The notes beneath the pieces were generated by a model. That model made no database searches. It saw nothing but the letters and a program-made list of their open reading frames with translations, and was not told the DNA's origin. A DNA stretch of 61,163 nucleotides. Origin: Candidatus Gastranaerophilales bacterium. GTDB lineage: Bacteria; Cyanobacteriota; Vampirovibrionia; Gastranaerophilales; Gastranaerophilaceae. The stretch is taken from the NCBI GenBank assembly GCA_944324365.1, contig CALUWA010000007.1, forward strand, positions 1 through 61,163, read 5' to 3'. The position numbers and the translations under genes are program-made. This document shows positions 1 through 61,163 of the stretch, in pieces. Each line of letters starts with the position of its first letter. Position 1 is the stretch's first letter.

Positions 1-4
1 ATTT

Positions 5-61
<57 letters not shown>

Positions 62-77
<16 letters not shown>

Positions 78-285
78 GATTTTTAAAAAGAGCCGTAATG
101 GCTCTTTTTTAGTGGCTTAGGCACGGGCGAGAACCCGCAAAGCGAAGCTTTGCCTTTGGTTCGAGCGCGAGGGAGCTGAGTGCGAAGGCTTGGCTGCAAA
201 TACATGTAATTTATGCAGCAGACAACCGAAGGCACGTTAAACGCGACCGAGCAAGACAGCCCCTCCGGACCCAGATTTTTAAAAA
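62..285 (+). repeat. tRNA-Lys tail direct repeat with structured spacer
   Basis: Bases 62-89 (the last part of tRNA-Lys and its 3' flank) recur exactly at 258-285. The spacer contains GGGCGAGAACCC, a CAAA-GCGAAGC-TTTG mini-hairpin around 136-152, and a GCTGCA...TGCAGC stem near 192-217. The core GGG.CGAGAACC...CAA.GCGAAGC is also found in the tandem units behind tRNA-Gly(CCC) at the other end of the window. The arrangement resembles an att-like duplication or the rtT-type repeats behind E. coli tyrT. No protein-coding gene is convincing here. Confidence 0.75.
85..110 (+). terminator. Intrinsic terminator after tRNA-Lys
   Basis: AAAAAGAGCC and GGCTCTTTTTT form a perfect stem around the loop GTAAT, followed by a run of T. 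It starts 8 bases after the tRNA and should end its transcript, so the duplicated tRNA tail downstream lies outside the terminated transcript unless there is read-through. Confidence 0.8.
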
Positions 286-22478: not shown

Positions 22479-24602
22479 TTATACCATACCTAATCTGCCT
22501 TTTCTTTTTGTAATATCATCTGCAAGATGGCTAAAATCAGGACGTGCAGCTGTCTTGCCTTTATTTATAGGATTTGTTGTAGTGGCAGTCGTTGCAGCCT
22601 GAGTCTGCTGTGTTCCTTTTTTGCCGGTTAAATCTTTGATTCCGCCGACAATTTCTTTACCAAGGTCAGCTACCTCATCAAAAGTATCTTTGTTATTGTT
22701 ATAAACATCTTTTGCTCCGTTAATAAAACCTTTCAGACCGCCTTTCTTTCCTGCAGCATTTGCGGCTGTATTTCCGGCAGCGTTACCCGCTGCGTTTCCT
22801 GCGTTGGCAGCTGCATTACCTGTGTTGCCTGCGGCATTGCCTGCATTATCGGCAACGTTACTTGCGTTGCCGGCTGCATTACCGGCATTACCGGCTACAT
22901 TGCCTGTGTTACCTGCATTTGCTGCTGCATCACCTGTGGAAGCCATTGCATCTCCCGCTCCGCCTGATACATTTGAGCGAGCCTGGTCAATTTTAGCTTT
23001 TGTTGCATCTGCTGCAGCTTTTGTATCATTTGCTATTTGAACACCGTTTTTAACCTGTTCATCAATTGCTTTGAACTGTTCTCCCATACTCTTCAAGCCT
23101 TTTGTAGCTGCGGCTGCAGTCTGAATTGCAGAACCAGCATTAGCAAGAGCTTTTGTTATATTGCCTTCTGCAAGAGCTGTTGCGGTTAATGTAACCTTAG
23201 CCGCTGCAGAACCGACTTTACCAACGTTTTCTGTTACGACACCGACTTTATTTACAACGCCGCCGGCTTTAACCAACGCTGCACCTGCTGCTGCGGTGAA
23301 CGGATTTGAAGCCATTGCAGTACCGGTTGCAATCATTACTTTACCGGTTTTTTGGGTTATTGAACCGACATTTTGTACTGTTGTTGAAATATCATCAACT
23401 TTTTGTGCAAATTTTTCAATCTTGTTATTTGCAGTTTCGTTATTCTTTAATTCTACATTTTGTTTTTCATAATACTTAGCCTGCATTTTAACTGTGTTTG
23501 TCATTTTTGCCTGGCTTGTCTGCATTCTTGTAGATGCTTTTGACATTCTTGTAGAATAAGTTGACTGCGTATTATTCAAAGTATCTATTTTCTGATAAAT
23601 CTCATCAAGTTTCTGATTATCATCATCAGTTAATGCGGTGCTGTTCTGTGACTGAGTTGGTGTTGAGCCTGCAAGATCTAATGAATAAGCACTGTTCTGA
23701 CCTTGACCGGTCTTATCAATAATGGCATCCGCTTCACTTTGAAGCTGGGTCATCTGTTGTTGATTTTCTGCCATTTGCTGGCTCAACTGGTTAACTTCTT
23801 TTGAACTTGAATTGAATTCTTTTACTGTTGATTTATAATCTTTATTCAAGGATTTAACTGATTTTTGAATATCTTTTGTAGCTGTTTTGGCGTCTTTTGC
23901 CATGGCTTCAGCCTGCTCACCCTGAGCTTTTACTTCTTTAGTCTGGTTTTCACAGTCTTCTGCTGATTTTTCAGCTTCTGCGGCCTGTGCTTCGCCGCTT
24001 GCTACAGAAACTTCCTCCTGCTTATTCCCGTTCTTAATTGATACCTGAGATCCGTCTTCGTTCGCATTAATATTATTCGGATCCTGAGCTGCGTTTTCCA
24101 ATGCTGTCATATTACTCAATTCAGCTTCGGAAGCTTCTTTTCTGACAAGAACTTCTCTTCTCATATCCAAATCAGCCGAAATATCCATGAACTCTTGTAA
24201 CTTCTTAGAATCGTTACATCCTTGCATATCAGTCCGCAATTGACTATATGCACTATCGACATCGGCTGATGTTTTTAAATTTTCAATATTATCATAAAGT
24301 TTTTCAGGAGCACTTGCCGTTGTTGCGGCAGCATTTTTTACACCCTGCTTAAAAATATTATTTAAATCTAAATCGTAGTTATTTCCCTGAGTACCTGTTG
24401 TTCCGTTATTTGACGTTGTGGAAGCAGTTTTAGCAGTAGAATTTTTGGAATTTACCATTATAGAGCTGTTCATATCCATACCGTCGGCTTTTTTATTACC
24501 GTCAGTCTTGGCAGTAGAACCTGTTCCCACTCTGCTTTGCATTTGCTTAAGCTGTTCGGGAGTCAGTTTTTTAAAGAAATTTACGCCATCTGGTCCTGTC
24601 AT
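22479..24602 (-). CDS. Large coiled-coil and Gly-Asn-Ala repeat protein, unknown
   Basis: A 707-residue protein of no known family. It opens TGPDGVNFFKKLTPEQLKQMQ. Long heptad-rich coiled-coil regions (about 180-390) are full of Gln, Ser and Lys. Ala/Gly-rich possible membrane-inserting segments follow (GKVMIATGTAMASNPFTAAAGAALV, about 430-455). About fifteen GNAAGN-type repeats then occupy roughly 560-625, followed by a basic tail. The layout recalls secretion-system translocator or tape-measure-like proteins; that is only a resemblance. I start at 24602 because AAGAGAG precedes this ATG and the longer form covers the promoter. The GCAATTA/TTTATATA signature lies upstream. Confidence 0.75.
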   Translation of the reverse strand: MTGPDGVNFFKKLTPEQLKQMQSRVGTGSTAKTDGNKKADGMDMNSSIMVNSKNSTAKTASTTSNNGTTGTQGNNYDLDLNNIFKQGVKNAAATTASAPEKLYDNIENLKTSADVDSAYSQLRTDMQGCNDSKKLQEFMDISADLDMRREVLVRKEASEAELSNMTALENAAQDPNNINANEDGSQVSIKNGNKQEEVSVASGEAQAAEAEKSAEDCENQTKEVKAQGEQAEAMAKDAKTATKDIQKSVKSLNKDYKSTVKEFNSSSKEVNQLSQQMAENQQQMTQLQSEADAIIDKTGQGQNSAYSLDLAGSTPTQSQNSTALTDDDNQKLDEIYQKIDTLNNTQSTYSTRMSKASTRMQTSQAKMTNTVKMQAKYYEKQNVELKNNETANNKIEKFAQKVDDISTTVQNVGSITQKTGKVMIATGTAMASNPFTAAAGAALVKAGGVVNKVGVVTENVGKVGSAAAKVTLTATALAEGNITKALANAGSAIQTAAAATKGLKSMGEQFKAIDEQVKNGVQIANDTKAAADATKAKIDQARSNVSGGAGDAMASTGDAAANAGNTGNVAGNAGNAAGNASNVADNAGNAAGNTGNAAANAGNAAGNAAGNTAANAAGKKGGLKGFINGAKDVYNNNKDTFDEVADLGKEIVGGIKDLTGKKGTQQTQAATTATTTNPINKGKTAARPDFSHLADDITKRKGRLGMV

Positions 24603-25658: not shown

Positions 25659-27578
25659 TTATTTACCAAATATCTTATTAACAAGTTCTAATATTTTATT
25701 AAAGTTATATTTATCGCCGGGAATTGATTCACTGAACGGTTCACTGTTTTTATCAGGAGTAAAAAATGCATTATCTCCAGTATACATTATATCGTAACCA
25801 TCGGCTTCATTTGCGGGATCTTTATCAATGTAGACTGAAAGTATTTCTCCCTGTTCTGTACGAACAACGGAAACTTTTCTGCCATCAGGAAGTGTCACAG
25901 TTTCAGATCCATCTTCTTCTTTTACAACTTCAAGCGGAGGATCTGCATAAGCAGCTTCTGCTAATGTTTTATTTGACTCTACAAACATTTGTCTTGTTTC
26001 TTCCGGAACTCCGTCCATAGAATTAACTATAGCATTTGCATCCTCATTTATTTTTGCCTGACGCTGTTCTGCTGTCATTGCTGCCCCATCTGCATTTGCC
26101 GGGGCTTCTGCATCTGCCGGGGCTTCTGCATCTGCCGGAGCTTCTGCGTCTGCCGGAGCCTCTGCGTCTGCCGGAGCCTCTGCGTCTGCCGGAGCTTCTG
26201 CGTCTGCCGGAGCTTCTGCGTCTGCCGGAGCCTCTGCATCTGCCGGAGCTTCTGCGTCTGCCGGAGCTTCTGCGTCTGCCGGAGCTTCTGCGTCTGCCGG
26301 GGCTTCTGCGTCTGCCGGAGCTTCTGCGTCTGCCGGGGCTTCTGCACTACCACTTTTTGGAACAATAATTTCGGTACCTTTAACCGGGTCTTTACCTTCA
26401 TTCAATTTCATAAGTTCTCCGGTTCTGGCTTGAATTTCTTTCATTGTTGGAGATTCTTTGCCCTCTGCAGCTAAAGATTCTTTAGCTAACGCCCACCAGG
26501 TACTATTTTTATCCAGAGTTTTCGTTTCAGTTTTGCCTTCATATTTTGAAACATCTGCTCCATCTGTTATTGCTTTATTATATTTTGCAATTTCGCCATT
26601 ACTGTCAACATTCAGTCCTTCTTTATTAACTTTATCTTCAATAGATTTTGGTATCACAACCTCTTTGCCGACAATAAACCATCCTTGTTTTGCAGCGGTC
26701 TTATTAGCTTCCGCAAAAGCCTCATATTCCGGAGTTCCCGGTTTAAAACCTAAGCGTTCTGCCGTTTGTTTAAATGATTCTCCATTTTTAGCATAAGATA
26801 TCATTTCACCTTTTGAATTTCGTTTTACCTCAGGTGCATTTTCGGATTCATCCTGGGATGCTGCCTCATCAGCTTCGTCTGCTGAAGCTGATGGCGCTTC
26901 TTCTTCTGCTGTAGCTTCTTCTGGGGCCTCTGCAGCACCTGCAGCTTCAGCTGCCCCAGCTTGCTCAGTAGGAGCTGCTCCGCCGCGTTCTTCACTCACA
27001 GGCTCATTTCCGGCAGGGTGTTCCGTCGAAGGAGTACCTTCAGCTCCGTTTGTAGGAGCACTTCCTGTAGACGCCTGCGGTGCACTTTCCTCAGCCGGAG
27101 CTTCAGCACTTTTAGCAGTGTATACTAAACTACCGTACAAAGGTTTACTGCCATTTACAACGACCATTTTGTTAATTACATCAAATCCGTCATCAGCATA
27201 CTCATATCTGACTTCATCGGTCACACCGCCGCCTTTATCGGTAACAACCTTAACAAGCCTTTTAGAACCGTCATAATATTGTGTAACTGCACCTCTGGTT
27301 CTGACTTCATAAGAGTTGCCATTTTCATCTTGTCTCCATTCAGTTTTCCATTGTGTCGGGTCAGCGGATTCATTTGCCTGCTGATTTCTGTGGGCTTTAA
27401 TTTCTGCGTCACTAATAACTCCGTCAGCCGTCGTATCTACTTTTTGCTGAAAATATTCCCTGATTTTTGCATTTGTAACATCTGACAACGCGGAGCCTGA
27501 TTTCACCTCTGCCTTGCCGTCTGAAAGCTTAATTCTAAGAACATTATCTCCGCCGTTAATACCATTCATATTTTTCAT
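25659..27578 (-). CDS. LysM-like, EF-hand-like protein with EAPADA tandem repeats
   Basis: A 639-residue protein of mixed low complexity. Residues about 50-65 (DTTADGVISDAEI) look like an EF-hand loop. About 90-145 has a YYDGSKRLVKV strand repeat. An Ala/Glu-rich linker runs from about 155 to 250. Two LysM-like modules follow (about 255-310, ending GKEVVIPKS; about 345-400, ending GTEIIVPKSG). About 13 perfect hexapeptides EAPADA come next (about 412-495) before a C-terminal domain. No signal peptide is present. GGAG lies 8-9 nt before the ATG. It probably spans wall or envelope; the function is unknown. Confidence 0.8.
   Translation of the reverse strand: MKNMNGINGGDNVLRIKLSDGKAEVKSGSALSDVTNAKIREYFQQKVDTTADGVISDAEIKAHRNQQANESADPTQWKTEWRQDENGNSYEVRTRGAVTQYYDGSKRLVKVVTDKGGGVTDEVRYEYADDGFDVINKMVVVNGSKPLYGSLVYTAKSAEAPAEESAPQASTGSAPTNGAEGTPSTEHPAGNEPVSEERGGAAPTEQAGAAEAAGAAEAPEEATAEEEAPSASADEADEAASQDESENAPEVKRNSKGEMISYAKNGESFKQTAERLGFKPGTPEYEAFAEANKTAAKQGWFIVGKEVVIPKSIEDKVNKEGLNVDSNGEIAKYNKAITDGADVSKYEGKTETKTLDKNSTWWALAKESLAAEGKESPTMKEIQARTGELMKLNEGKDPVKGTEIIVPKSGSAEAPADAEAPADAEAPADAEAPADAEAPADAEAPADAEAPADAEAPADAEAPADAEAPADAEAPADAEAPADAEAPADAEAPANADGAAMTAEQRQAKINEDANAIVNSMDGVPEETRQMFVESNKTLAEAAYADPPLEVVKEEDGSETVTLPDGRKVSVVRTEQGEILSVYIDKDPANEADGYDIMYTGDNAFFTPDKNSEPFSESIPGDKYNFNKILELVNKIFGK
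26095..26346. repeat. 18-bp tandem repeat encoding EAPADA
   Basis: About 13 head-to-tail 18-bp units (GG(A/G)GC(T/C)TCTGC(A/G)TCTGCC on the plus strand) lie inside the 639-residue gene. Units differ only at synonymous positions. The unit length is a multiple of three, so copy-number change keeps the frame. All six frames are open here; only the minus frame is coding. Confidence 0.9.
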
Positions 27579-60823: not shown

Positions 60824-60898
60824 GCGGAAGTAATTCAGTGGTAGAATGCAACCTTCCCAAGGTTGACGTCGCGGGTTCGAGTCCCGTCTTCCGCTCCA
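60824..60898 (+). tRNA. tRNA-Gly (anticodon CCC)
   Basis: Complete cloverleaf: acceptor GCGGAAG with CTTCCGC, anticodon loop TTCCCAA, T arm GCGGG-TTCGAGT-CCCGT. Discriminator T and an encoded CCA. Its last bases CTTCCGCTCC are repeated at the start of each following 133-bp unit. Confidence 0.95.
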
Positions 60899-61163
60899 TT
60901 GAAAACAGCATAAAAAGTCAAAAGGGACGAGAACCGTCAAGCGAAGCTTGACTAGTGAGAAGTCCCGTTGCTATAGCTCTTATGCGAAGAATGAGCATTA
61001 GAGATATAGTACCTATTTGGCTTCCGCTCCATTGAAAACAGCATAGAAAGTCAAGAGGGACGAGAACCGTCAAGCGCAGCTTGACCAGTGAGAAGTCCCG
61101 TTGCTATAGCTCTTATGCGAAGAATGAGCATTAGAGATATAGTACCTATTTGGCTTCCGCTCC
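60888..61163 (+). repeat. 133-bp tandem repeat carrying the tRNA-Gly 3' end
   Basis: CTTCCGCTCCATTGAAAACA begins at 60888 inside the tRNA and again at 61021, and CTTCCGCTCC begins once more at 61154 before the window ends. The spacing is 133 bp both times. Each unit holds GGGACGAGAACC, a GTCAAGC-GAA/GCA-GCTTGAC hairpin, GTCCC closing onto GGGAC, and a CTATAGCTCT...AGAGATATAG stem. The two units differ at only a few positions. No terminator follows the tRNA directly, so the units can be co-transcribed with it. The window cuts the array, so the copy number is unknown. Confidence 0.9.

Follow-up and report, generated by a model that had tools for sequence, protein, structure and literature searches.

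Small tRNA-linked units of Gastranaerophilales share the plan of E. coli rtT and are candidate mobile elements

The present study reveals that roughly one-third to one-half of the tRNA genes in Gastranaerophilales genomes are followed by small units, each of which ends in the 3′ end of its own tRNA. We consider, with a probability of about 0.55, that these units are non-coding mobile elements of about 130 to 190 bp, belonging to an RtT-like class, with the 3′ portions of tRNA and tmRNA genes as their insertion sites. The window, i.e., the whole stretch of DNA analyzed, is an entire contig (G000:C7, 61,163 bp) of a 2.05-Mb draft genome (G000), and it carries such units at both of its ends. This set of units, from gut bacteria related to cyanobacteria, is large and, as neither Rfam nor the open-licence literature yielded a match, apparently undescribed; the open-licence literature on rtT, tycheposons, and Melainabacteria elements contained nothing about Gastranaerophilales units.

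For every tRNA gene, the 900 bp on either side were searched for a copy of the 3′ end of that gene. Such a copy was present downstream of 17 of the 36 tRNA genes in G000, 15 of 40 in G012, and 9 of 27 in G145 (part of a genome, with 27 tRNA genes), and upstream of none in these three genomes. With a stricter match the figures were 15/32, 13/40, and 6/27, respectively. As a control, the tails of non-cognate tRNAs matched at 0.1 to 0.6% per pair. The own-tail copies in G000 mostly lie 120 to 200 bp downstream of the tRNA. Most tRNA isotypes carry units, and tmRNA is likewise a target. Specifically, the G000 tmRNA (L284, G000:C5:55576-56164) is followed by a type-A unit, the anatomy of which is given below; the tmRNA end is devoid of CCA and the distal copy has it. 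Tandem arrays of units are common and may be the cause of the frequent breaks of Gastranaerophilales draft genomes at tRNA genes.

A sequence-only reading of the window had described two complete 133-bp units and the beginning of a third after tRNA-Gly(CCC), each opening with the last 10 bases of the tRNA. These coordinates were right (Table 1). Tandem Repeats Finder reported the array at 60888-61163 (period 133, 2.1 copies, 97% matches, score 524), with full repeat copies at 60888-61020 and 61021-61153, and each repeat opens with CTTCCGCTCC. The third repeat is cut off at 61163, where the contig, and with it the window, ends. The tRNA end is copied further than those 10 bases, since GTCCCG (nt 59 to 64) and CTTCCGCTCCA (nt 66 to 76) are also found. 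The foot, GAG, and arm of unit 1 together form the complement of the cognate T-arm GGTTCGAGTCCC, apart from a central tandem G.A. The folding proposed earlier, namely GGGAC with GTCCC, a GCGAAGC mini-hairpin, and an A/T-rich stem, was found in all its parts, and the predicted energy of the unit was −40.1 kcal/mol against a shuffle mean of −29.3 kcal/mol (z −3.2). An assembly artifact is excluded as the source of the repeat pattern because units sit within contigs at many loci. In an Rfam scan of the window and units, only the tRNA scored above the family threshold, and in a DNA similarity search of the array against phages and plasmids, the tRNA part alone was covered among the matches listed.

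Table 1. Positions of tRNA genes, units, and tRNA-end copies in the window
Feature	Position	Strand	Basis
tRNA-Gly(CCC), encoded CCA at end	60824..60898	+	ARAGORN, Rfam RF00005
Unit 1 spacer, A/T-rich	60899..60923	+	sequence
Unit 1 foot GGGAC, GAG, arm AACC	60924..60935	+	sequence
Hairpin 1, GTCAAGC-GAA-GCTTGAC	60936..60952	+	sequence, fold
Copied tRNA end, part 1, GTCCCG = nt 59-64, pairs with foot	60962..60967	+	sequence; G012 and G003 units compared
Hairpin 2, loop GCGAAGAATGAGC, within tRNA-end copy (nt 65/66)	60970..61010	+	fold; L004; 13-mer enrichment
Copied tRNA end, part 2, CTTCCGCTCCA = nt 66-76	61021..61031	+	sequence
Unit 2 (spacer, foot, hairpin 1, GTCCCG, hairpin 2)	61032..61153	+	tandem repeat, 97%
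Unit 2 foot	61057-61061		
Unit 2 GTCCCG	61095-61100		
First bases of third repeat, CTTCCGCTCC	61154..61163	+	sequence
tRNA-Lys(CTT), opposite window end	4..78	+	gene call
Complete type-A unit behind tRNA-Lys(CTT)	122..263	+	model R1 (unit used in building it), 142.6 bits
Exact copy of tRNA-Lys nt 59-73, GCCCCTCCGGACCCA	259..273	+	

The unit behind tRNA-Lys(CTT), which is among the 13 units used to build R1, a covariance model of the type-A unit, is of the general kind; its final 5 nt (259-263) are the beginning of the tRNA-end copy. On the tRNA strand, the type-A order is spacer, foot, GAG, arm (AACC..), small hairpin, GGTTCGAGCG, long stem that contains a CGTTAAA stretch, CAAGACA, and tRNA-end copy. 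The unit is about 142 nt long, and its 3′ end adjoins an exact copy of tRNA nt 59 to 73. The copy starts at nt 59, directly after A58, and is preceded by CAAGACA. The array behind tRNA-Gly(CCC) is an unusual variant of this plan, in which the long stem is absent and the tRNA-end copy is split by a different, second hairpin, the 133-bp unit being repeated in tandem. The arrangement of the variant was seen again in another genus (L004).

Except at the central tandem G.A, foot and arm jointly are reverse-complementary to the cognate T-arm. Among 25 type-A units, which are partly non-independent because some share one tRNA in related species, the foot paired with 3.72 of the 5 bases of its own nt 59 to 63, compared to 2.75 when tRNAs were permuted. 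Corresponding values for the arm in these units were 2.88/4 and 1.98, and no permutation out of 5000 reached the observed value in either case. In some units (Ala, tmRNA), the foot mismatches its own tRNA.

RNAalifold folded the type-A units into a three-way junction, and the covariation of the aligned units is strong. In an alignment of 38 distinct units, which was fitted to the model and is biased towards it, 95.1% of the cells pair and compensatory change occurs at 24 of the 31 pairs (0/500 shuffles). Cells changed on both sides numbered 225, against 67 expected, and a one-column shift of the partner collapsed the signal. In the long stem, the pairs that vary comprise 3 G-U and 3 A-C against 450 standard pairs (7 and 4 against 619 in a second alignment), and the tRNA stems at the same loci have 6.8 to 10.7% G-U. 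G-U pairs are usually tolerated in RNA stems. Since the long stem is nearly free of them, selection on folded DNA is favored, and the scarcity is suggestive of such selection, although not a proof.

This observation bears on the main rival to the mobile element, i.e., that the units serve the host as RNA. They would then be co-transcribed with the tRNA and released as regulators or sponges of the RtT type, about 130 to 170 nt in length, with the tRNA-end copy and the fold kept for cutting or binding by tRNA-processing enzymes. The E. coli rtT RNA is a precedent (PMC4986893), and the units have the same plan. Strong covariation also fits an RNA role, and so does the sense orientation of all tRNA-linked type-A units. 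On the other hand, the spacers of many units have a terminator-like hairpin and T run directly behind the tRNA, the long stem has almost no G-U, presence of the units varies between sister species, and orthologous tRNAs often carry unrelated units. On balance, a host RNA role seems somewhat unlikely as the account of the units, and it may coexist with mobility. The sequence-only reading had raised the possibility of a new tRNA-derived RNA family. That reading is supported in part: the arrays in relatives, the strong covariation, and the units inside contigs all came out in its favor. A mobile DNA element accounts for more of the findings than a processed RNA does by itself, because G-U pairs are scarce and related units lie at different tRNAs and at tmRNA.

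Several comparisons between loci point to movement. Behind tRNA-Gly(CCC), G009 is empty, whereas G008 has a unit lodged between this tRNA and a downstream sequence common to both genomes, with a degraded distal tRNA copy. The best matches of units are frequently found at different tRNAs. For instance, the Leu(CAG) and Gly(CCC) units of G012 are 95% alike, the Gly(CCC) unit of G003 and the Lys unit of G012 88%, the Thr and Gly(TCC) units of G012 81%, and in G000 both Lys vs. Leu and Ala vs. tmRNA 82%. The same tRNA often has an unrelated unit in different species (tRNA-His, G012 vs. G000: 64%). Close species may share a unit unchanged, as in tRNA-His of G000 and G009 (C17:54007), which are 100% alike.

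The alignment of the Ala and tmRNA units of G000 begins with the first base past nt 73, takes in the terminator, and reaches CAAGACA, and both flanks are target-specific. This is the only pair that shows both element ends cleanly, and from its alignment it looks like the insertion of one element of about 170 to 190 bp that duplicated 15 bp, nt 59 to 73. At 7 loci, CCA is missing from the tRNA and yet kept in the distal copy (the reverse was seen at 1); the other junction lies at 73/74 in these 7 loci because CCA is kept in the distal copy alone. Retargeting limited to tRNAs with the same T-stem was considered and set aside, as the preference for tRNAs with the same T-stem was weak (102/2000 permutations).

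Could old repeats account for these pairs? Ancient tRNA-linked repeats might have spread by tandem duplication and gene conversion with no dedicated movement. Gene conversion is possible for the Leu/Gly pair of G012, because the two are alike in the unit and differ in the spacer. The abundance of tandem arrays and the orthology of some units in close species also agree with such a history. Against it, the Ala and tmRNA units share spacer and terminator exactly to nt 73 at otherwise unrelated loci, and a fixed nt-59 junction with a matched foot needs more than conversion. We consider an origin from old repeats to be improbable.

The likeness to E. coli tyrT/rtT, which had been proposed from the window, was borne out by the same foot-GAG-AA-arm plan, the GGTTCGA..GAGCG element, and the nt-59 junction. 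The rtT RNA of E. coli, a product released from the transcript of tyrT, has been linked, as a possible role, to the stringent response (PMC4986893), and a tandem G.A motif has been reported in RtT (PMC7657543). In our comparison, three rtT/RttR repeats of 178 bp lie behind E. coli tyrV, and nt 59 is exactly where their distal copies begin (GAGTA/ATCCTTCCCCCACCA). Their foot, GGGGAAGGAT, is complementary to ATCCTTCCCC; GAGAA comes directly after the foot, and GGTTCGA and GAGCG follow later. In the annotated RtT units of Salmonella tRNA-Pro, the copy begins at nt 59 and matches at 15/15 positions, and the foot forms six pairs. The Gastranaerophilales units thus share with RtT (RF00391) a position immediately behind a tRNA gene and on its strand, tandem repetition, a copy of the cognate tRNA end from nt 59, a foot complementary to the copied end, GAGAA after the foot (also in the window unit), GGTTCGA..GAGCG, and the tandem G.A motif. 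Unlike RtT, they occur at most isotypes and at tmRNA, have a long covarying stem, and are related across different tRNAs. R1 gave weak matches to two E. coli rtT repeats (13.4 bits; E 0.005 for 1.8 kb of sequence), and RF00391 had no match in eight Gastranaerophilales genomes at E ≤ 0.1, the E. coli control being positive.

The plan was also found in viral contigs, which were searched with a pattern of T-arm plus foot-GAG-AAC and a copy threshold of at least 13/15 of nt 59 to 73. The pattern occurred 123 times; 8 of these had the nt 59 to 73 copy, 7 were accepted (L309, L310, L314, L317, L405, L409, and L435, with L409 and L435 near-identical), and the reversed control gave 0. L309 (IMGVR_UViG_3300027542_000775) is of the Gastranaerophilales kind, its tRNA-Ala being accompanied by a full type-A unit (98 bits), and a second unit is located about 1 kb away (69 bits). 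L314 and L409 are similar to enterobacterial sequences.

As judged from these sequence comparisons, the foot-GAG-arm plan is present in at least two phyla, and either common descent or a shared mechanism may account for the likeness to rtT. It is tentatively conceivable that rtT and the Gastranaerophilales units form one class of tiny mobile elements, characterized by T-arm-guided insertion, a 15-nt duplication, and an intact tRNA. rtT is usually seen as a released piece of a tRNA transcript, and the same plan in another phylum makes this class testable. The covarying fold, the fixed junction, and the signs of movement suggest a mobile-element origin for rtT.

Homologous arrays are present at tRNA ends in relatives. 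R1 had matches in 60 of 97 relatives: in the family 47 of 58 genomes, with up to 28 copies per genome, and in other families of the order 13 of 22, with few or weak matches; elsewhere in the class it matched none of 17 genomes. In a phylum-wide draw with stricter filters, 76 of 194 genomes had R1 matches, all within the family. In four genomes, 32 of 49 R1 matches shared the strand of a tRNA and lay no more than 600 bp downstream of it (about 0.5% expected). Several of the remaining matches end in a tRNA tail without an adjacent tRNA, and one, directly behind tmRNA, ends in the tmRNA tail.

Hairpin 2 of the window array has a distribution of its own. About 98 occurrences of its 13-mer are spread over 39 of the 145 family genomes; the reversed control gave single-digit numbers. 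It often lies within a second unit type (type B), found behind tRNA-Pro, -Leu, -Val, -Glu, and -Arg, which is mostly reverse-oriented and usually has a tRNA-end copy 13 to 14 bp behind. Named contigs with the hairpin GTAGGCGAAGAATGAGCCKTAC belong mostly to Candidatus Gastranaerophilales/Melainabacteria; some are labeled just 'bacterium', and two are under clostridial names. In G151 (24 copies) and G031 (12 copies), the GCGAAGAATGAGC hairpin is dispersed, REP-like, and partly tandem, and almost never near a tRNA (L041-L055 and L063-L073). The exact hairpin-2 pattern had no match in viral contigs. The hairpin-2 loop may consist of tandem G.A pairs with a GAA triloop closing them, and the loop variant GCGAATGAAATGAGC of L004 is consistent with this reading.

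Another rival account is that the copied ends are att remnants, left by integrated phages or islands that were later deleted. Integrases or islands do occur at tRNA genes here: an integrase adjoins tRNA-Ser in G051 (L158), a 385-aa tyrosine integrase ends beside tRNA-Val(TAC) in G000, like an integrated phage (L161, G000:C19:30000-40000), and a 14-kb island lies between tRNA-His and its unit in G012 (L297, G012:C2:148800-163600). This island encodes a 538-aa serine recombinase and a 182-aa tyrosine recombinase; by eye, the start of a 304-aa protein resembles retron reverse transcriptases. It appears to have arrived after the tRNA-His unit, and from its reading we rejected that the unit belongs to the end of an island. 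Random remnants would not be expected to give a single conserved 142-nt fold at most isotypes, and no attachment-like overlap exists left of nt 59. We consider such an origin to be highly improbable. Tycheposons are tRNA-targeting integrative elements. The units have in common with such elements the use of the tRNA 3′ part and the copy left at the far end; unlike them, they are about 130 to 190 bp long, non-coding, and of one fold across isotypes. No integrase gene lies between two tRNA-end copies, the 14-kb island being read as a later insertion; the first copies are about 90 to 310 bp behind the tRNA, which is too short for a recombinase.

Other known systems resemble the units in part. With REP/RAYT, the likeness is that of short palindromic DNA elements mobilized in trans by a single-copy enzyme. 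G000 has a single-copy Y1 (RAYT-like) transposase (L252, G000:C18:22087-22455), which is flanked by its own palindrome GTAGGTTGGGCATACTTGCCCAAC, different from the units. RAYT is absent from G009, G012, and G151. RAYT was rejected as the driver of the units on account of its different palindrome and of unit-rich genomes that lack it. Integron attC cassettes share folded sites and tandem arrays, and for attC single-stranded DNA is the probable working form. Unlike attC, the units target the tRNA T-arm and have no cassette genes; by reading, no GTTRRRY/RYYYAAC core was found at the unit junctions, which are CAAGACA/RTCC or similar. Reverse transcription primed by tRNA fits the copy length, with an 18-nt primer site at nt 59 to 76. 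We set it aside, since the duplication ends at nt 73 where copies differ and no reverse transcriptase was linked to the units, the RT-like protein of the G012 island not being common to them.

With regard to mechanism, a mobile unit would insert at the T-arm/acceptor DNA of a tRNA gene and duplicate nt 59 to 73. The duplication would preserve the complete 3′ end of the gene, the second copy staying behind the unit; the tRNA gene would stay complete because nt 59 to 73 are duplicated on insertion. Base pairing of foot and arm with the T-arm could guide the unit to its target. The working form might be folded single-stranded DNA, or RNA copied into DNA. A putative enzyme would act in trans, as every unit is too short to encode one. 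To our knowledge, guided insertion at tRNA genes has no previous description.

Besides the two-unit array of the window, tRNA-Gln(CTG) of the same genome (L191, G000:C29:15408-16167) has at least four tandem units with a period of 170 that run into the contig end. Two other repeats lie inside the window. Positions 22747-23034 contain clustered, imperfect tandem repeats of 21 to 42 bp, and positions 26089-26345, probably a coding region, hold 14 copies of an 18-bp tandem repeat with the consensus TCTGCGTCTGCCGGAGCT.
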